Assembly (NCBI RefSeq): GCF_900176485.1
Contig: NZ_FWYD01000006.1
Location: 62,001 to 126,000 of the forward strand
Reading direction: 5' to 3'
Source of the DNA: Primorskyibacter flagellatus
GTDB lineage: Bacteria > Pseudomonadota > Alphaproteobacteria > Rhodobacterales > Rhodobacteraceae
Length of the DNA: 64,000 bases
Shown here piece after piece: positions 53,939-62,180 of this stretch; the first letter of the stretch is position 1, and the number at the start of each line of letters is the position of its first letter. A program made the position numbers and the translations under genes. A model generated the notes under the pieces. It saw nothing but the letters and a program-made list of their open reading frames with translations. It did no database searches and had not been told where the DNA came from.

Positions 53939-55023
53939 GTGTCCCGTCTTCTGTGACCCGCGCCGAAGCTGCGCGGCTGCTGGCGCTTTTCGAACAGGCC
54001 GGCGCGCAGCGTGTGGATTGCGGCATTCTGCAACCCGCCGAGGTTCTGCTGGATCTTTACGGCGAGGATATTCGCGGACGGGCTTATGTCACGCAGGACC
54101 CGTCACGCGGCGAGCAGATGTTGCGTCCGGATTTCACCGTGCCGGTGGTGCAGATGCACATGACAGGCGGGGCGGAGCCCGCGCGCTATACTTACGCCGG
54201 GGAGGTGTTTCGCCGTCAGGAGGACCACCCCGAGCGCGAGAACGAATATATCCAGGTCGGCTATGAGGTGTTCGATCGTGTGGATCCGGACGCCGCCGAC
54301 GCAGAGGTGTTTGCGCTGTTTCACACCGCGCTTGCGCCGTTGGGGCTGCACCCGGCAACTGGCGATATCGGCATCCTGATGGCCGCGGTCGAAGGGCTGG
54401 ACACCAGCGCGCGGCGTCGTGCCGCGCTGATGCGGCATATCTGGCGGCCCCGGCGCTTTCGGGCGCTTCTGGATCGGTTCGCGGGGCGCAGTCCCGTGCC
54501 TGCGTCGCGTGCGGCGCTGCTCCGCGCCGAAGATGCGTTGGCAGATGCCGGCCCGATGATCGGACTGCGCAGCCCGGCGGAAATCTCGGCGCGTATCGAG
54601 GCGCTGCGCGAGGATGCGCAGGATCGCCCGCTGTCCGAGGCACAGGTCGCCGCGCTCGACGCGGTTTTGGCGGTGCGTGAAACCTGTCCATTTGCGCTGG
54701 AACGGTTGCGCGACATTGCAGTGGACCTGCCCGCTATTTCGGGCGCGCTGGACCGGTTTGCGCGCCGGATCGACGCGCTGGACAAACGCGGGATCGACAT
54801 CGAACACCTTGATTTCGAAGCCAGCTATGGCCGTACCTCGATGGAATATTACGATGGGTTCGTCTTTGGTTTTTACGCTGCCGGACGTCCCGATCTGCCG
54901 CCGGTAGCGACCGGCGGGCGATATGACGCGCTGACCCGTAGGCTGGGTAACGGGGCCGAGATTCCGGCGGTCGGGGGCGTGATCCGGGCTGGATTGATCG
55001 AAATTCTGGGAGGCGGGCAATGA
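53935..55023 (+). CDS. hisZ: ATP phosphoribosyltransferase regulatory subunit HisZ
   Basis: 362 residues from ATG 53935. It resembles the catalytic core of histidyl-tRNA synthetase ([13 protein letters not shown] and the [13 protein letters not shown] motif 2-like segment) but lacks the anticodon domain, as HisZ does. It is needed for activity and feedback inhibition of the short HisG. The four-base overlaps at both ends (hisS-hisZ-hisG) show one translated unit. Confidence 0.95.
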
Positions 55024-55712
55024 CCGTCAAACTGGGTGTGCCGTCCAAGGGGCGGTTGATGGAAAAGACGTTCGACTGGTTCGGCGAGCGCGGCGTGACC
55101 TTGTCTCGCACCGGGTCGGAACGCGAATATTCCGGCAAGGTCGACGGAGTGGACGGCGTGCAGCTTGTGCTGCTCTCGGCGGGAGAGATTCCGCGCGAAC
55201 TTGCGGCGGGGCGGTTGCATCTTGGCGTGACCGGTACTGATCTTGTCCGCGAGAAGCTGGTGCAATGGGATCAGCAGGTCGAAGAGATGGCCGCGCTTGG
55301 TTTCGGATTTGCCGATCTGATTGTCGCGGTGCCGAGTTGCTGGGTGGATGTCGATTGTCTGGATGATCTTGATGCGGCGGCCTCGGCGTTTCGGGCCGAA
55401 CATGGCCACAGGCTGCGCATTGCAACAAAATATCACCGCCTCGTGCGGGACTACCTGCGCGCAGGCGGCGTGGCCGATTACCAGCTTGTCGACAGTCAGG
55501 GGGCCACCGAAGGCACGGTTAAGAACCTGACGGCAGAGGCGATTGCCGATATTACCTCGACCGGCGAGACGCTGCGCGCGAACCACCTCAAGATCTTGGG
55601 AGACGGGCCGATCCTGCGATCACAGGCGACGCTGTTTCGCAGCCGCAAAGCGCAGAAGGCCGTGGCGGAACGCGCGGCATTGAAGCAGTTGCTGGACAAG
55701 CTTGGCCTTTAG
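55020..55712 (+). CDS. hisG: ATP phosphoribosyltransferase, short form HisG
   Basis: 230 residues, the short HisG without the C-terminal regulatory domain. KLGVPSKGRLMEKT is near the N-terminus, GVTGTDLVRE in the middle, and the PRPP-binding pattern (DSQGATEGTVKNL) near 158-170. It makes the first committed step of histidine synthesis and depends on HisZ, encoded immediately upstream. Confidence 0.96.
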   Translation: MTVKLGVPSKGRLMEKTFDWFGERGVTLSRTGSEREYSGKVDGVDGVQLVLLSAGEIPRELAAGRLHLGVTGTDLVREKLVQWDQQVEEMAALGFGFADLIVAVPSCWVDVDCLDDLDAAASAFRAEHGHRLRIATKYHRLVRDYLRAGGVADYQLVDSQGATEGTVKNLTAEAIADITSTGETLRANHLKILGDGPILRSQATLFRSRKAQKAVAERAALKQLLDKLGL

Positions 55713-55781
55713 GGACAGGCAAGGGACCTTTAGTTGAATGCGCCGCATGGGCTGTTCAGCGCCTGGCGCAAAACGCTGCTG

Positions 55782-56216
55782 TCAAAGCACGCCAATCTCG
55801 GCCAGCGCGCCCGCCAGTTCCGGCGGCAAACTGTCTTCGCAGGCGCGGCGCGCCCCCAGATCGGCGGGCGAATCTTCCGGCTGCAAATAGCGCCAGCCCT
55901 GAAAGGGGCGCTTTTGCGAGGGCGCAACACGGATGATTTCCGGGTCCAGAACGATGGCGCAGCGGCGGATGCCGTCTTCGCCGATGACCTCATCCAGTCG
56001 CAACACGCGCTGCCGACATTGCACCAGCCCCTTGATGACCCAATACAGCGATCCGCCATTGAGGATCTCTTCGCTGCGTTTTGGCCACATTCGCGTGACG
56101 TGCCGCGGTAACCCGTCGGCCGTCTGCGCACGGCGCGACGTTTGCCAGTCCGCCATGGATTCGACGCTTTCGCTGCCGACGCTGAGCTTGATGAGATTGG
56201 TGAAACGAGTCGTCAT
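55782..56216 (-). CDS. DUF1489 family protein
   Basis: 144 residues from ATG 56216; an ATG three codons upstream is the alternative. The segments NLIKLSVGSESVESMADWQ, TRMWPKR and GGSLYWVIKG match the alphaproteobacterial DUF1489 family, of unknown function. It converges with hisG across 69 bases with no clear terminator. Confidence 0.85.
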   Translation of the reverse strand: MTTRFTNLIKLSVGSESVESMADWQTSRRAQTADGLPRHVTRMWPKRSEEILNGGSLYWVIKGLVQCRQRVLRLDEVIGEDGIRRCAIVLDPEIIRVAPSQKRPFQGWRYLQPEDSPADLGARRACEDSLPPELAGALAEIGVL

Positions 56217-56648
56217 GGCGATCATTGTAGCCTGCCAGGCGGCGGCGGCAATGTCCCCGGTTCAGAAACTCTGGCACTCCCCAAAGCGTTCCGAACCGAG
56301 GATGCACCGTACAAGCGCAACAGAAACAATACTGAACATGAACGCTAAGATCATGGCGCTTGGCCTTTCGACCGGGATGCGCAACCACTCACAACAACTA
56401 CAACACCCTCGCACGGCACTCTGCGAGTCAATAATCATGTTTGGGTGATTCTTGTCAATGCATTGGGAATGCTATAAAAAATATACTGTAAAGGCTGAAA
56501 CTTCTTTCTTTTCAGAGCGTGTATTCTTCTCTGGGGGAGTCCATTTTTGCCGCGTCCTCGTGGCAAGATGGAGCGACCGGTCTGCTTGACCGCAGCACCC
56601 CGGCGGCCTAATCTGACAAGCCTTCTTCCAGTTGCCATAGGACTTGCC
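56217..56648. other. Upstream region of nrdJ
   Basis: 432 bases. The right half is conspicuously AT-rich (56430-56520) and holds a candidate promoter: TTGTCA at 56452-56457 and TATAAA at 56473-56478 (15-base spacing). A B12-riboswitch box was looked for and not found. The left half has no supported gene. Frames starting at 56547 run into nrdJ but precede the conserved start. Confidence 0.45.
56452..56478 (+). promoter_or_regulatory. Candidate nrdJ promoter
   Basis: TTGTCA, a 15-base spacer and TATAAA in the only strongly AT-rich stretch before nrdJ, about 170 bases ahead of the ATG. Spacing is short of the ideal 17, so confidence is low to moderate. Confidence 0.35.
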
Positions 56649-59159
56649 ATGACCCGTTTCGCCGTGCCGATCTCTGAACAGATCTGGGACATGAAGTACC
56701 GGCTGAAAGAGGCTGATGGAACGCCTGTCGACCAGACGGTCGAGGATAGCTGGCGTCGCATTGCCCGCGCGCTCGCCTCTGTCGAGGAAGACGCCGATCT
56801 GTGGCAGGATCGGTTCTACGGCGCGCTGGAGGACTTCCAGTTTCTGCCAGCGGGCCGGATCACGGCGGGGGCAGGCACCGGGCGGGCGGTGACGCTGTTC
56901 AACTGTTTCGTGATGGGCACCGTACCCGACAGCATGGGTGGCATCTTCGAGATGCTGAGAGAGGCCGCGCTGACCATGCAGCAGGGCGGTGGCATCGGCT
57001 ATGATTTCTCGACCATCCGGCCGCGCGGGGCAGATGTGAAAGGCGTGGCCGCCGATGCGTCTGGTCCGCTGTCGTTCATGGATGTCTGGGATGCGATGTG
57101 CCGTACGATCATGTCGGCGGGATCACGCCGTGGCGCGATGATGGCGACAATGCGCTGCGACCACCCCGATGTTGAGGATTTTATCAGCGCCAAGTCTGAC
57201 AGCGCGCGCCTGCGGATGTTCAACCTGTCGGTGCTGGTCACGGATGCCTTCATGGACGCGGTGAAATCCGACGGCAGTTGGGACCTGCAATTCGACGGCA
57301 AGATCTATCACACCGTCAAGGCGCGCGATCTGTGGAACCGGATCATGCGCGCAACTTATGACTACGCAGAGCCGGGCGTAATCTTCATCGACCGGATCAA
57401 TCAGGCCAACAACCTCAGCTATGTCGAAACCATCGCCGCCACGAATCCCTGCGGCGAACAGCCCCTTCCGCCATATGGGGCCTGCCTGCTTGGGTCGGTC
57501 AACCTTGCCCGTCTGGTCGATCGCCCGTTCGAGACAGGCGCACAGATCGACGAGGCCGCGCTGTCCAGACTGGTGGCCGTGGCGATCCGGATGATGGACA
57601 ACACCGTGGATGCCAGCCGCTTTCCGTTGGAGCAACAGCGCCAGGAGGCGATGAACAAGCGCCGCATCGGCCTGGGGGTCACCGGGCTGGCAGACGCGCT
57701 GCTGATGTGCGGCATTCGCTACGGATCGGACGCAGCGGCACAGCAGACAGAGCGCTGGCTGCATGCCATCGCCCGCGCGGCCTATCTGGCAAGCGTCGAA
57801 CTGGCGAAGGAAAAGGGCGCTTTCCCGCTGTTCGATGCGGAAAAATACCTGGCCTCCGGCACCATGCAGCAGATGGACGAAGACGTCCGTGCCGCCATCG
57901 CCGAACACGGCATCCGCAACGCATTGCTGACCTCCATCGCGCCCACCGGTACGATCTCGCTTTACGCGGGCAACGTGTCTTCGGGGATCGAGCCGGTCTT
58001 CGCCTATGCCTATACGCGCAAGGTGCTGCAAAAGGACGGCTCGCGCACCGAGGAAGAGGTCGTCGATTACGCCGTGCAAATGTGGCGCGACAAGTTCGGC
58101 GATGCAGATCTGCCTGATTATTTCGTCAACGCTCAGACGCTTGCACCGCTGGATCACGTCAAGATGCAGGCAGCAGCCCAGAAATGGGTGGACAGCTCGA
58201 TCTCCAAGACGATCAACTGCCCCGTGGACATCTCGTTCGAGGCGTTCAAGGACGTCTATATGGAGGCCTTCGAGTCCGGCTGCAAAGGCTGCACCACCTA
58301 CCGCCCGAACGATGTGACGGGGAGTGTGTTGAGTGTGTCGGAGGAGACAAAAGAACTGCCTGATCTCGCTACTACCGGAGACCGATTAGTATGGGCTATG
58401 GCGCAAAAGAACATCAAAAATGCGTCCGAACTGTCTCGCCTCAGCAGCGTTTCTAAGAGTTACCTGAGCGAAGGCATGTCGGGCGTAAAACAGTTGGGCC
58501 GCGATACCGCAACCAAACTCGCCACTGTGCTGGATGTAAGCGCAGGCTGGCTTCTTTTCGGAGATGCGAACCCGGGCCCTGAAATCCTCGCCACCACCGA
58601 CGCCGAACCGCAAACCCCGCATGGCGACGTGATCTACATGTCCGAACCGCTCGACCGGCCCCAGACGCTCGAAGGTGCCACCTACAAGCTGAAATGGCCC
58701 GATAGCGAGCACGCCATCTATCTGACAATCAACGATCTTATCGTCGGCGGGCGCAGGCGCCCGTTCGAGGTTTTCATCAACTCCAAGAACATGGAGCATT
58801 TCGCCTGGACCGTGGCCCTGACCCGCATGATCTCGGCCGTGTTCCGGCGCGGCGGCGACGTGTCCTTCGTCGTCGAAGAATTGAAAGCCGTCTTCGACCC
58901 GCGCGGCGGCGCATGGGTGAAGGGCAAATACATCCCCTCCATCCTGGCGGCCATCGGCGGCGTGATAGAACAACACCTCATCGCCATCGGCTTTCTTGAA
59001 GGCGAGGGCATGGGCCTGAAGTCCGACCCCAAAGCCCAGGTCGTCGGCCTCGACACCCCCAAAGGCCCCGCCTGCCCATCCTGCGGCCAGTACACAATGA
59101 TCATGGCCGAAGGCTGCCTGACCTGCTCATCCTGCGGACACAGCAAATGTTCTGGTTGA
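56649..59159 (+). CDS. nrdJ: Class II (adenosylcobalamin-dependent) ribonucleotide reductase with embedded HTH segment
   Basis: 836 residues from ATG 56649. The core of class II reductases is present: TLFNCFVMGTVPDSMGGIF with a redox cysteine, ATNPCGEQPLPPYGACLLGS with the radical-site cysteine, SIAPTGTISLYAGN, and the GCKGCTTYRPND segment. A C-terminal cysteine cluster (CPSCG and CSSCGHSKC) follows, likely for zinc or thiol transfer. It reduces ribonucleotides using a B12-derived radical without oxygen. Between SVLSVSEETKE and GDVIYMSEPLDRP a segment of about 65 residues (575-640) reads as an XRE/Cro helix-turn-helix, foreign to the family and lower in GC. Confidence 0.95.
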   Translation: MTRFAVPISEQIWDMKYRLKEADGTPVDQTVEDSWRRIARALASVEEDADLWQDRFYGALEDFQFLPAGRITAGAGTGRAVTLFNCFVMGTVPDSMGGIFEMLREAALTMQQGGGIGYDFSTIRPRGADVKGVAADASGPLSFMDVWDAMCRTIMSAGSRRGAMMATMRCDHPDVEDFISAKSDSARLRMFNLSVLVTDAFMDAVKSDGSWDLQFDGKIYHTVKARDLWNRIMRATYDYAEPGVIFIDRINQANNLSYVETIAATNPCGEQPLPPYGACLLGSVNLARLVDRPFETGAQIDEAALSRLVAVAIRMMDNTVDASRFPLEQQRQEAMNKRRIGLGVTGLADALLMCGIRYGSDAAAQQTERWLHAIARAAYLASVELAKEKGAFPLFDAEKYLASGTMQQMDEDVRAAIAEHGIRNALLTSIAPTGTISLYAGNVSSGIEPVFAYAYTRKVLQKDGSRTEEEVVDYAVQMWRDKFGDADLPDYFVNAQTLAPLDHVKMQAAAQKWVDSSISKTINCPVDISFEAFKDVYMEAFESGCKGCTTYRPNDVTGSVLSVSEETKELPDLATTGDRLVWAMAQKNIKNASELSRLSSVSKSYLSEGMSGVKQLGRDTATKLATVLDVSAGWLLFGDANPGPEILATTDAEPQTPHGDVIYMSEPLDRPQTLEGATYKLKWPDSEHAIYLTINDLIVGGRRRPFEVFINSKNMEHFAWTVALTRMISAVFRRGGDVSFVVEELKAVFDPRGGAWVKGKYIPSILAAIGGVIEQHLIAIGFLEGEGMGLKSDPKAQVVGLDTPKGPACPSCGQYTMIMAEGCLTCSSCGHSKCSG
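58351..58569 (+). other. XRE-like helix-turn-helix coding segment within nrdJ
   Basis: The protein here reads TTGDRLVWAMAQKNIK, then ASELSRLSSVSKSYLSEG, then TATKLATVLDVSAGWLLFG (residues 575-638). These are helix 1, the turn and recognition helices 2-3, and the closing helices of phage-repressor/XRE domains, down to the typical WLLFG ending. Codons such as TTA, GTA, CGA and AAA, rare in the flanks, cluster here. The frame is unbroken on both sides, so it is translated as part of the reductase. Confidence 0.8.
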
Positions 59160-59529
59160 TGCTTTAGGCAGAGTATTGTCGCCACTATCAATTAGTGGCC
59201 ACCGGCGGGCTTGAAACGTCCATTCCGCAAGCGAAAAAGGTCAATCGGGCAAAGGAGCCCGATTTTCCGCTATTTCTGCCATTTTCGCGCAGGAAAGCGC
59301 TTTCGGCTCTGTCCTGAAGGATATGGGCATCGAAAACGGGCGACCAAAACGGTTTTCGAATTTTTTGGGCTTATCGGTGGCCGATAGAGCTCTTGGGCTC
59401 GGGCGCGGCTCTGGTTCCGTTCCGAGTAGACCAGTTCGCCAGGAAAGAATACGGCGTCCGTTTCTAAGACTTGCCGGGAATTCGATGCGCAATGTCGGTA
59501 GGTATCGGCCCAAGAAAAGATAGGAACGC
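59160..59529. other. Region after nrdJ, border to the accessory part
   Basis: About 370 bases with the nrdJ terminator at 59243-59266 and AT-rich, irregular sequence after it (for example a six-T run at 59362-59367). No gene is supported. It marks where gene style changes from housekeeping to accessory. Confidence 0.45.
59243..59266 (+). terminator. Rho-independent terminator of nrdJ
   Basis: Arms AATCGGGC (59243-59250) and GCCCGATT (59257-59264) with six loop bases, then T residues to 59266; 83 bases after the nrdJ stop. Confidence 0.75.
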
Positions 59530-59557
59530 AAAAAGGGCGGCTTGCGCCGCCCTTTTT
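59530..59557 (-). terminator. Terminator of the small accessory genes
   Basis: Perfect arms AAAAAGGGCGGC and GCCGCCCTTTTT around a four-base loop, 19 bases past the stop of the minus-strand gene at 59577. The A/T ends make it work in both directions. Confidence 0.85.
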
Positions 59558-59576
59558 CAAGGTTCCGATGAATTTC

Positions 59577-59975
59577 CTACTGTGATCGCCAGCGCCGCAC
59601 CGCATTCTCGATGCGCGCGTAGGCCTGGATCGCCTCGTGCTTCGAATGGTGACCGTCGCAGAATTGATGGCCGTAAGTGTCTGCGCCCGTGTCTTCGATC
59701 GTGTAGCCGAGCGCGAGAAACGCCTCGTGCGCCGCTTCGGTCAGCCGCGCGGGGTGTGTCGGCGAAGTGATGACAGTCACGCCGGCGATCTCCCGGCCGA
59801 TCTGGGTGTAGTGCCGGTCCACCCAGACGTGGACGCGAGATAGGCTGTGCTTCTCGATGAGCCACAGCGTCACGTCGCAGATGTCCTGCTCCATCCCGAA
59901 CTGATCGGGATGGACGCTCAGGCGGCGCCGGCGCGCCAGCTGAAGCACGCAGCGTGCCCCGGTCTCAGTCGGCAT
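59577..59975 (-). CDS. Unknown accessory protein
   Basis: 132 residues from ATG 59975 (an upstream start at 60014 would lengthen the overlap). It overlaps the end of the preceding gene, suggesting coupling. It has a basic N-terminal part (LQLARRRRLSVHPDQFG), then alternating strands and helices (VHVWVDRHYTQIGREIAG) and a His-rich stretch (QFCDGHHSKHEA). No family is recognised. A strong terminator follows. Confidence 0.6.
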   Translation of the reverse strand: MPTETGARCVLQLARRRRLSVHPDQFGMEQDICDVTLWLIEKHSLSRVHVWVDRHYTQIGREIAGVTVITSPTHPARLTEAAHEAFLALGYTIEDTGADTYGHQFCDGHHSKHEAIQAYARIENAVRRWRSQ

Positions 59976-60315
59976 GTCGGAACCGCCCGAGAAGCTCGCT
60001 GACGCGCGCGCCATGCCACCGGGTCATGTCGGAAGCTGGCAGGCCCCTCTCATGCCCGATCCTGTCGAGCGACGTCGGTGCCTGGTCGGCCAGGATACGA
60101 CGGATATCGCGCAGCGCGGCCTCGACGGCATCGGCATCCGGGATAGGCTGCCCGAAGGCGCCATGCAGGTCACAGAGCGCCGCGAACCCGCTCGGATCAT
60201 CGAGAGCGTCGAGCAGGTCGCAGAGGCTCGCACCGTGGTGGCGGAGGTGTCGCTCGACCGTGTAGGCCGCGCCAAGACGCGCCTCGGCGGCGCCGAGGGT
60301 GGTGGTGTTGAGCAT
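59965..60315 (-). CDS. Unknown accessory protein with HGAxLC motif
   Basis: 116 residues from ATG 60315, behind AAGGGAG. Mostly helical and acidic. Residues 27-43 (HGASLCDLLDALDDPSG) match, at the same position, a segment of the next protein upstream (HGAALCNAAGLIDDEAG), with about 10 identities in 26, so the two may be distant paralogues. No known domain. Co-directional with its neighbours. Confidence 0.65.
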   Translation of the reverse strand: MLNTTTLGAAEARLGAAYTVERHLRHHGASLCDLLDALDDPSGFAALCDLHGAFGQPIPDADAVEAALRDIRRILADQAPTSLDRIGHERGLPASDMTRWHGARVSELLGRFRHAD

Positions 60316-60626
60316 GTTGATCTCCCTTCATTCAGTGGCGGAAACGGTGCGGGGTGCCTGATTCATCGGCGTCATGTTCCGTCGCGTGGGAGAAATCGGG
60401 CGTTGGCTGGGGCCTTTCGGTCGGTGTCAAAAGCTGGTCTTGGGTGCTGGTGACGAGAACATTGGTCGTTCTTTTGGATGACGAAGAAGAAATCTGCCCA
60501 ATGCTTGAGATTTCTTTGGCGGCCGCCAACGATGTCCCGAGGCGGTTGACGGCCGGGTATCGGACCTTGCGTTGGTCCGAGGTCAGGACGTCGGCCATGC
60601 AAACCCTGCATGGCCGAAGCCACTCT
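60316..60626. other. Gap between small accessory genes
   Basis: 311 bases. A frame of 83 codons on the minus strand (60372-60623) has no ribosome-binding site and an implausible composition, so it is not called. Nothing else is recognised. Confidence 0.4.
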
Positions 60627-61040
60627 TCAGGCCGCGTCCTCAGCCAGGAGGGCGAGCGCCAGGGCGTCCCGATCGTCATCCATTTCTCCCATCTCGACCA
60701 GGAGATCGTAGAGCCGGTCAGTGAGCTGGCAGAGCTCTTCCACTTCGGGACTGGCAGGGTCGAGGAGCATCCAAGACGACAGGTCAGGCTCGAACGCGTC
60801 GATGACGGGGTCGAGCGACAGAAGCCGATGCAGATCGACGAGCCTACGTCGCGTCGCCCGCTCGAGGCGCGGCGCTTCGCGCAAGCGGGACATGAGGCGC
60901 AGAACGCGGGCCGTTCCGGCCTCGTCGTCGATAAGCCCGGCGGCGTTGCACAGCGCGGCTCCGTGCTTGTCGAAAAACTCGCGGACGGCGGTGAGTTGCG
61001 GGTCTGCGGACAGGGTCTTCGTTGGGAGCTTGCGCAGCAT
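60627..61040 (-). CDS. Unknown acidic helical accessory protein with HGAxLC motif
   Basis: 137 residues from ATG 61040, behind a full AGGAGG. The frame stays open upstream to 61667 but the ribosome-binding site fixes this start. The protein is helical and acidic toward the end (VEMGEMDDDRDALALALLAED). Residues 26-42 carry the HGAxLC motif shared with the 59965-60315 product. Function unknown. Confidence 0.7.
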   Translation of the reverse strand: MLRKLPTKTLSADPQLTAVREFFDKHGAALCNAAGLIDDEAGTARVLRLMSRLREAPRLERATRRRLVDLHRLLSLDPVIDAFEPDLSSWMLLDPASPEVEELCQLTDRLYDLLVEMGEMDDDRDALALALLAEDAA

Positions 61041-62180
61041 GTAGGGCCTCCTGATTGTTGCGCGTCTGCCGGTCGTGGCAGCATCAAGCCTGTCCGCGGT
61101 CTTTGCTTCGGTTGACCTTCCTTGTTCCTGCTTGGGGCTGAATGGCCGTTGCTTCGCGTCTCTCGATTTGGAGATTGGCCAGCCGCCCGCGGCACGAAGA
61201 AAAAACTTCCGCTCTGTTCGAGACCGAAGCCGATTTCCTCTGACCAGAGCCGTTGCTCGGCCCCGTGACACCGATCGAATACTCTGGAATAGAAGCGTGG
61301 TGTGCCCATCTGAAGGACGCTGTCCTCGTCTCCATCGGACGGCTCGTTGGGAGTAGGCTGGAAACCTGCGAACCGTGAGAGCGATGCCAGATCCAACTTT
61401 TTTGATTTCTGACCACGGAAGTGTTTTGGTCCGGATCTTGTCGTTCCATTTCTTCCCTATGACGGACGGGCATGAGGATGCCGCCGAGGACTGCACGGTC
61501 GAGAAAAGAGAGAGGAGGCAACACCAGTTCCAGAACGACTGGACGCTCGCGAGAAACCGTTGCGCATCACCGAAAACGCAGCGCGCTGTGGGGATCTGAT
61601 CACTCCCCGGTGGTGATGGCATCCGCGAGAGCGGAAGCGACGACGTGCATCCGTGGCGAAGTTCCATTTCGTCTGTCAGAGAGGGCCGTCCCGGGCGGTC
61701 TTCGAAGTCCCGGCCACCGACGGGAGACGACCACGAGCGCGGTGGCGCTCGTTTTCATGAACAGAGGAAACGCATCAAGGCTGAAAACGGAAGACGGAAA
61801 TTTCAATAAGAGGACTACGCGGATGGCGCCCCCGGGGCGTGACGATCCGGGATCGGCGGCGCGCACATTGCCGCGACCGGCGCTTGCCTACGGTCTCCGT
61901 CAGCCCGCTGGCGGGCGGAGGGAGACCGTGTGCTATCTCGGGACTAACTCATGAACGCGACCGGCCCATTGCGGCCACTCGTCAGCAACTTCGATTGCTG
62001 CGGTGCAGCCTGCGCGAACAGCCATTCGCTGCAAGTGCGAGGTCGAACCGACTGCGAACCTGTTGTTGGTGGCATCGACCTCCGCCGCCGTTACTACATG
62101 GCCCGTCGCTCAATCAGCCCACATCTGTCCTATTTCGTTGCGTTGCGGTTTCGGATCGTGGATAATCACGTAGTTGTGTA
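61041..62180. other. Long apparently non-coding stretch
   Basis: About 1.14 kb between genes facing away from each other. Frames exist on both strands (for example 61472-61954 and 61600-61866) but none has a convincing start site, domain or composition. An inverted repeat at 61891-61928 is the only clear structure. It may be a decayed gene or a control/mobility region. Confidence 0.5.
61891..61928. repeat. Inverted repeat in the non-coding stretch
   Basis: Outer arms CGGTCTCC (61891-61898) and GGAGACCG (61921-61928) enclose an inner GCCCGC/GCGGGC stem around 61903-61916, giving a two-step hairpin. No T tract follows. Confidence 0.55.

Follow-up and report, generated by a model that had tools for sequence, protein, structure and literature searches.

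The window analysed here, a 64,000-nucleotide stretch of the Primorskyibacter flagellatus genome (contig NZ_FWYD01000006.1, positions 62,001 to 126,000), contains an nrdJ gene for a B12-dependent class II ribonucleotide reductase (RNR) that carries an insert of 75 residues in the linker joining the catalytic barrel to the TSCPD/Zn-ribbon tail. As judged from profile matches and a structural model, the insert is a complete helix-turn-helix (HTH) domain of the XRE type with a five-helix Cro/CI fold. Alignments and trees of related loci show repeated gain and loss of this domain and its substitution by versions from unrelated XRE subfamilies, even between sister species. Few enzymes are as well studied and as conserved as RNR, whose added domains are regarded as long-lasting, yet here one position changes between sister species. 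We found no description of an HTH insert in NrdJ in the PubMed Central (PMC) literature, as covered by titles and the starts of abstracts in searches that were not all aimed at the insert.

The preliminary description of this DNA placed an XRE-type HTH at 58351-58569. Alignment with HTH-free relatives gives nearly the same borders (58353-58577), and the reading frame is indeed intact on either side. The Pfam HTH_3 match is real but modest, because the segment of 100 amino acids (aa) reaches 23.0 bits over residues 587-635 (E 8e-5), exactly at the cut-off of 23, and the whole protein only 18.8 bits (E 0.0017), which is under the cut-off; the genome search gave 23.4 bits. In PHROGs, the best match of the segment is a phage ‘transcriptional repressor’ family with a better E-value (4.5e-9) than that of HTH_3. 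An AlphaFold2 model of the insert, built with 43 relatives, contains five helices and has a predicted local distance difference test score (pLDDT) of 84, with block means of 94-97 over residues 11-70. This model resembles P22 c2 (Z 11.5, root-mean-square deviation 1.4, 67 aligned residues), 434 Cro (Z 11.2) and SinR (Z 11.1), with further matches to Stl and to XRE-like folds within the enzymes HEPD and MPnS. Foldseek returned no match to the model at E<=0.001 (best match SinR, E 3.2e-3), and a sequence search of solved structures with the insert gave only a weak, unrelated spidroin match (E 0.047). The five helices recur in a full-length NrdJ model, which is mediocre (pLDDT 71.2, and below 50 in the flanks 555-568 and 640-671), so we claim no domain arrangement. 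The net charge of the window HTH is +1, a value that is not decisive as to putative sequence-specific DNA binding. Two other origins were rejected. An intein or self-splicing insert is contradicted by the Pfam matches of the segment at E<=1, which comprise three HTH-type families and a weak HRDC match (E 0.066) and no intein family. An assembly artefact is ruled out, since carriers lie on contigs of up to 4.3-4.4 Mb (G141, G101) and many genomes have differing HTHs.

The distribution of the domain is patchy. At least 592 NrdJ loci came out of a scan of contigs, and the 80 best were retained, a sample that is enriched for carriers; an XRE-like domain stands at the same point in 20 of these 80 best bacterial loci and is lacking in the other 60. 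The earlier statement that related reductases have only a short linker here thus applies to most of them. It does not apply to all: in an even sample of 394 genomes of the window’s family, 356 have NrdJ, and at least 45 of these carry an HTH at the same point. They comprise 43 carriers among the matches listed (the window’s genome included; the remaining 42 loci were retrieved and inspected) and two from later searches, namely L202 (NrdJ linker) and L208, the latter called from its HTH, its frame length and the NrdJ match of its genome only. Among 385 genomes of the class, 132 outside the family had a listed match (E<=1e-150 only), and in none of them does the match reach beyond residue 587; a very dissimilar HTH could escape this threshold. 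In the genus of G031, the match ranges place an HTH in only one of five species, which points to recent change. Genome G180 encodes two short NrdJs, L167 with an HTH of the N subtype (see below) and L182 without one; L182 lies on a 3.3-kb contig and could be a paralogue or contamination. The comparisons below use a working set of 127 NrdJ proteins, 57 of them with an HTH, that was left after dropping nine exact duplicates (six carriers, three non-carriers); it is enriched for carriers, so no prevalence is drawn from it.

Across the 1596 pairs formed by the 57 carriers, identity averages 82% in the core and 30% in the HTH, the two being uncorrelated (Spearman 0.03, p 0.21), and no pair of HTHs exceeds 76% identity. 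The closest core pairs are L016/L144 (92.8%) and the window with L140 (92.2%), a sister species of the same genus. In both pairs the HTHs are 27% identical, and those of the window and L140 belong to different XRE subfamilies. The core tree implies 33 changes in HTH presence, and firm (starred) branches force at least 12 of these; the tree is a quick one with several long branches, where the stars merit less trust. Presence is nevertheless somewhat clustered, the shuffled mean being 42.1 changes with one in 500 shuffles as low as 33. A tree of the 57 NrdJ HTHs and 54 solo XRE domains rejects a single NrdJ-HTH clade (approximately unbiased [AU] test, p 3e-5); it rests on 72 columns, and the solo domains had been found through their similarity to NrdJ HTHs. 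Solo domains L205 and L207 nest within one NrdJ-HTH clade, and L212-L215, L230, L231, L235 and L237 within another. Subtypes A, B, C and E, to which 40 of the 57 carriers belong, require 19 changes on the core tree against 21.1 +/- 1.6 after shuffling (30 of 200 shuffles as low), a nearly random placement. Adding the small subtypes N and D (48 carriers; the other nine have no assigned subtype) gives 24 against 28.8 +/- 1.6, with 24 as the lowest shuffle, so inheritance accounts for part of the subtype pattern. Of the five N-subtype members, three share one core-tree branch, and this subtype looks partly vertical. For the set as a whole, the forced changes and the AU test rule out a single ancient insertion followed by divergence.

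The borders of the insert suggest how the domain moves. Carrier L146 and the HTH-free L034 are 97, 97, 97 and 87% identical in the last four 90-nucleotide windows ahead of the insert, and 96 and 94% identical in the next two beyond it. The left-linker codon haplotype GTG TTG AGT (VLS) occurs in 11 of 57 carriers and 0 of 67 non-carriers (p 1e-4). On the right, PHGD is found in 46 of 57 carriers, and PHGD, PHSD or AHGD in 14 of 67 non-carriers (p 2e-11); both counts omit non-carriers L028, L033 and L053 and include related sequences that are not independent. Since identity stays high up to the borders and some carriers have a left-linker haplotype in common, with PHGD on the right in most, these data suggest that the exchanged unit consists of the HTH with its short linkers and is moved by homologous recombination. 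The capture by recombination that had been proposed for the window is thus well supported by turnover, polyphyly, borders and haplotypes, as something that happened many times and not once. Apart from the HTH, the gene follows a tree of its own and its locus is syntenic: 51 of the 57 carriers and 67 of the 70 non-carriers have a divergent DUF1489 gene upstream of nrdJ. The non-carriers among the exceptions are the distant L028, L033 and L053, and two carriers and one non-carrier have less than 900 bp upstream. The distance between both genes is mostly 100-200 bp, and extra DNA was seen there in L027 (976 bp), L031 (964 bp) and L189 (1351 bp).

The preliminary description also noted that the codons of the segment differ from its flanks. 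This holds in the window, where GC content at third codon positions (GC3) is 0.61 for the insert with its linkers and 0.79 for the gene, no gene window of equal length being so low. Over the 57 carriers, mean GC3 is 0.64 for the insert and 0.83 for the gene, and in 52 of them the insert lies in the under-5% range of equal-length windows of its own gene. Low GC3 alone is no proof of origin, because HTH-free linkers (0.71 against 0.78) and the 54 solo XRE domains (mean 0.74) are also low. Both HTH_3 (E<=0.01) and the phage-regulator family phrog_8 match 53 of the 57 inserts; L022 (N subtype, E 0.04) is the one identified among the four that fail HTH_3, and nine of ten inserts scanned singly pass. 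In 17 of 17 same-subtype pairs, drawn from the 30 closest HTH pairs, the proportion of nonsynonymous differences (pN, 0.16-0.35) is below that of synonymous differences (pS, 0.52-0.86), and the corresponding rate ratio dN/dS is 0.13-0.26 in the nine pairs with unsaturated dS, a sign of purifying selection.

Some relatives of the inserts are repressors of the phage type. The solo relatives L212, L214 and L232 match Peptidase_S24 above the cut-off and L213 below it, while L205 and L207 show an HTH only; the Peptidase_S24 domain is a feature of CI/LexA-type repressors. Two of four neighbours match phage families for L207 (FtsK-like/unknown and a replication protein) and likewise for L212 (ParB-like and CII-like), and the remainder match none. 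Phage NrdJs were rejected as the source, as none of 54 viral loci has an HTH insert by eye, with L114, L115 and L137 ending before or inside the linker and several others soon after it. All 30 phage NrdJ records among the matches listed align in two pieces, and many Roseobacter-group phages carry an HTH-free NrdJ of the same family. The viral NrdJs differ in other ways. Those of L088, L091, L110 and L113 have linkers of 97-181 aa between the same anchors, of unrelated sequence and without a Pfam match at E<=0.1. In L132 (4838-5899), L134 (4904-5683) and L135 (4820-5704), intein-like inserts stand right after the residues aligned to 268-273, by C268, with Intein_splicing matches (above the cut-off in L134 only) and LAGLIDADG (L132, L135) or HNH (L134) endonuclease domains. 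Large gaps are likewise seen in L133 and L125.

The reading that we tentatively prefer, although we rate it somewhat below an even chance, is that nrdJ of the window’s family (Rhodobacterales) carries an exchangeable specificity module, the HTH, which contacts mobile DNA in an allele-specific way. New HTHs would be captured from repressor genes, some of the prophage CI/S24 type, and existing ones would pass between species by homologous recombination via the conserved linker sequences, perhaps with gene transfer agents or transformation as the vehicle. The HTH would retain a putative repressor-like binding and thereby lend the host enzyme its contact with mobile DNA. Its target may be either operators of temperate phages (immunity-like) or phage proteins that attack repressors (decoy). 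Turnover would then reflect changing phages and not the metabolism of deoxynucleoside triphosphates (dNTPs), for which most relatives seen do not need the domain. This conflict reading is proposed because the version of the module changes often while the fold is kept, and because some relatives are phage-type repressors; recognition under conflict would be expected to produce just such a position, which varies but hardly ever leaves one DNA-binding fold, and the papers searched do not connect RNR with conflict of this kind. A bolder version, which we regard as rather doubtful, makes NrdJ the chassis of an innate anti-mobile-element system in which lineage-specific repressor HTHs, traded by recombination, block cognate prophage operators or act as decoys for antirepressors. 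What each HTH allele recognizes becomes a concrete, testable question, and NrdJs with and without the domain form natural domain-swap sets, many of them from cultured marine bacteria.

Several observations weigh against an exchangeable module that contacts mobile DNA. The searches turned up neither a DNA target nor a cognate phage: the window HTH has no match in phage or plasmid collections at E 0.01. Of three other HTHs compared with viral contigs, two gave none and one gave eight matches, and three HTHs compared with plasmids gave six, zero and one records, all below 60% identity. An NrdJ HTH often has its nearest relative in another NrdJ HTH, which may mean that fresh captures are rare, and the purifying selection may partly reflect the history before capture. 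NrdJ HTHs are less basic than solo XRE domains (mean net charge 0.0 vs +1.7, with the stretches trimmed differently). Those of the N subtype are strongly acidic (mean -8.0), which speaks against DNA binding in this subtype. Within subtypes, the recognition helices are not obviously more variable by eye than the remainder, and matches in a PADLOC scan of eight proteins (E<=0.01) are confined to the HTH region. Finally, in one of the 57 carriers, L181 (G009), barrel and tail lie in different frames, either through a break downstream of the HTH or through misassembly; the other rows with incomplete tails (L182, L190, L191) are HTH-free and run off the contig or the retrieved stretch. The N-type HTHs of L013, L022, L167, L170 and L171 are acidic yet mutually similar, and possibly represent an XRE fold that has lost DNA binding.

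The strongest rival, in itself unlikely, is a protein-protein or allosteric module, in which pairing of XRE domains sets the oligomeric state or keeps dimers of the host reductase free of paralogous or phage-encoded NrdJ, with no part for DNA binding. The location between barrel and tail, the acidic and conserved N subtype, the HTH-free NrdJs of Roseobacter-group phages and the XRE-like folds in HEPD and MPnS, which are no regulators, are all consistent with such a role. On its own it does not account for the way in which sister species have swapped one XRE subfamily for an unrelated one, and most relatives seen manage without an HTH. The harmless passenger considered in the preliminary description, a functionless piece in a permissive linker that is swapped by recombination, agrees with the patchy presence, the foreign-like GC3 of the insert, the predicted disorder of the linkers (pLDDT below 50) and the broken frame of L181, if real. 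It fits poorly with inserts that are nearly all of one fold and with purifying selection in all 17 same-subtype pairs compared, although broken copies could have escaped an extraction based on open frames. For these two reasons, we judge a pure passenger distinctly improbable.

Control of its own promoter by NrdJ, also put forward earlier, would make the protein a trigger enzyme like PutA, with the HTH repressing nrdJ. Such autoregulation would suit an enzyme that has a DNA-binding-type domain and a divergent promoter region upstream, and it would agree with the low promoter identities of the two closest carrier pairs (69% for the window and L140, 63% for L016 and L144, gaps omitted). In 775 pairs whose cores are >=87% identical, promoters diverge along with the core, and having zero, one or two HTH carriers in the pair makes no consistent difference. 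Promoter identity amounts to 53.9, 54.0 and 54.4%, respectively, at core identities of 87-88.5, and to 64.2, 75.2 and 60.0% at >=92, where carrier pairs are few (36, 4 and 2 pairs). Promoters are 92% identical between carrier L146 and the HTH-free L034, and 83% between L010 and L154, two carriers with HTHs about 21% identical. Upstream palindromes at p<=0.05, with 20 mononucleotide shuffles each, occur in 7 of 56 carriers and 6 of 70 non-carriers and are thus not clearly enriched. NrdR, the usual regulator of nrd genes, is present in all 16 genomes examined (nine carriers, seven non-carriers), and on this basis the HTH was rejected as its replacement. NrdR-like boxes with <=4 mismatches to the consensus (5 of 56 carriers, 10 of 70 others) are uninformative, and no Rfam element such as a cobalamin riboswitch reaches the gathering score in 54000-62000. 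From these comparisons, own-promoter control via the HTH is not supported, and we consider it very unlikely. Little probability is likewise given to a DNA tether, whereby the HTH would anchor NrdJ to the nucleoid, to a plasmid or to a replication site for local dNTP supply. The predicted fold would permit it, but such a tether does not require constant change of the domain, and the average charge of the HTHs is neutral.

The features of the locus are listed in the table below. The full-length protein matches NrdJ_Z with 584.8 bits (cut-off 399.95) and thus belongs to this family. Its start was chosen by alignment with relatives, the earliest start codon of the open reading frame (ORF) being TTG at 56547. 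N266, C268, E270 and C279, which we take to be active-site residues, and C809, C812, C823, C826, C829 and C834 of the tail, presumably redox cysteines, are invariant across 36 aligned rows. The TSCPD domain is probably the region named IscU-like in PMC9669993. The same genome also encodes a longer class II reductase of about 1264 aa (open frame), and dNTPs may therefore have a source besides the short NrdJ. Two ORFs downstream of nrdJ on the minus strand (59577-60014 and 59965-60315) have no Pfam match above the cut-off.

Table. Features of the nrdJ locus, in window positions.
Feature	Position	Strand	Basis
nrdJ, B12-dependent class II ribonucleotide reductase, 836 aa	56649..59159	+	NCBIfam NrdJ_Z (TIGR02504)
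RNR N-terminal all-alpha domain, residues 9-79	56673..56885	+	Pfam PF00317
Catalytic barrel, residues 85-551	56901..58301	+	Pfam PF02867
Left linker VLSVSEETK	58326..58352	+	Linker alignment
XRE/Cro-CI type helix-turn-helix insert, residues 569-643	58353..58577	+	Without counterpart in HTH-free relatives
HTH_3 core of insert, residues 587-635	58407..58553	+	Pfam PF01381
Right linker PEILATTDAEPQTPHGDV	58578..58631	+	Linker alignment
TSCPD domain, residues 679-777	58683..58979	+	Pfam PF12637
C-terminal cysteine-rich Zn-ribbon/redox tail, residues 809-834	59073..59150	+	Invariant cysteines; PMC5704485
DUF1489 gene, divergent from nrdJ, conserved neighbour in carriers and non-carriers	55782..56225	-	Pfam PF07370; synteny
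Intergenic region upstream of nrdJ	56226..56648	.	No clear operator found

Insertions in RNRs and the tails of class II enzymes are the subject of a dedicated study (PMC9669993), which mentions insertions or duplications in some clusters. The window protein shares the whole catalytic core, the active-site and tail cysteines and the syntenic gene with class II NrdJ (TIGR02504) having a TSCPD/IscU-like and Zn-finger tail, and differs from it by the XRE HTH between barrel and tail. With Cro/CI-type repressors of temperate phages (HTH_3/HTH_26; P22 c2, 434 Cro, S24), the insert has in common the predicted fold, the domain length, the family matches and the solo repressors nested among the inserts. 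Unlike these repressors, the NrdJ HTH lacks a dimerisation or peptidase partner belonging to it and is embedded midway in a metabolic enzyme.

PutA, a trigger enzyme with one conserved DNA-binding domain and its own operator, is likewise a metabolic enzyme with a DNA-binding-type domain, whereas NrdJ can have unrelated HTHs in sister species, untracked by its promoter. HsdS of type I restriction systems and the integrated domains of plant nucleotide-binding leucine-rich repeat receptors are exchangeable recognition cassettes. They resemble NrdJ in their fixed insertion point, conserved chassis and changing recognition part, but the chassis here is a reductase and no known defence protein. In the Stl repressor of Staphylococcus aureus pathogenicity islands and phage dUTPase, a repressor with an XRE-like fold reportedly also meets an enzyme of dNTP metabolism in a conflict with phages; these are two separate proteins that bind each other, whereas in NrdJ the HTH is built into the enzyme.

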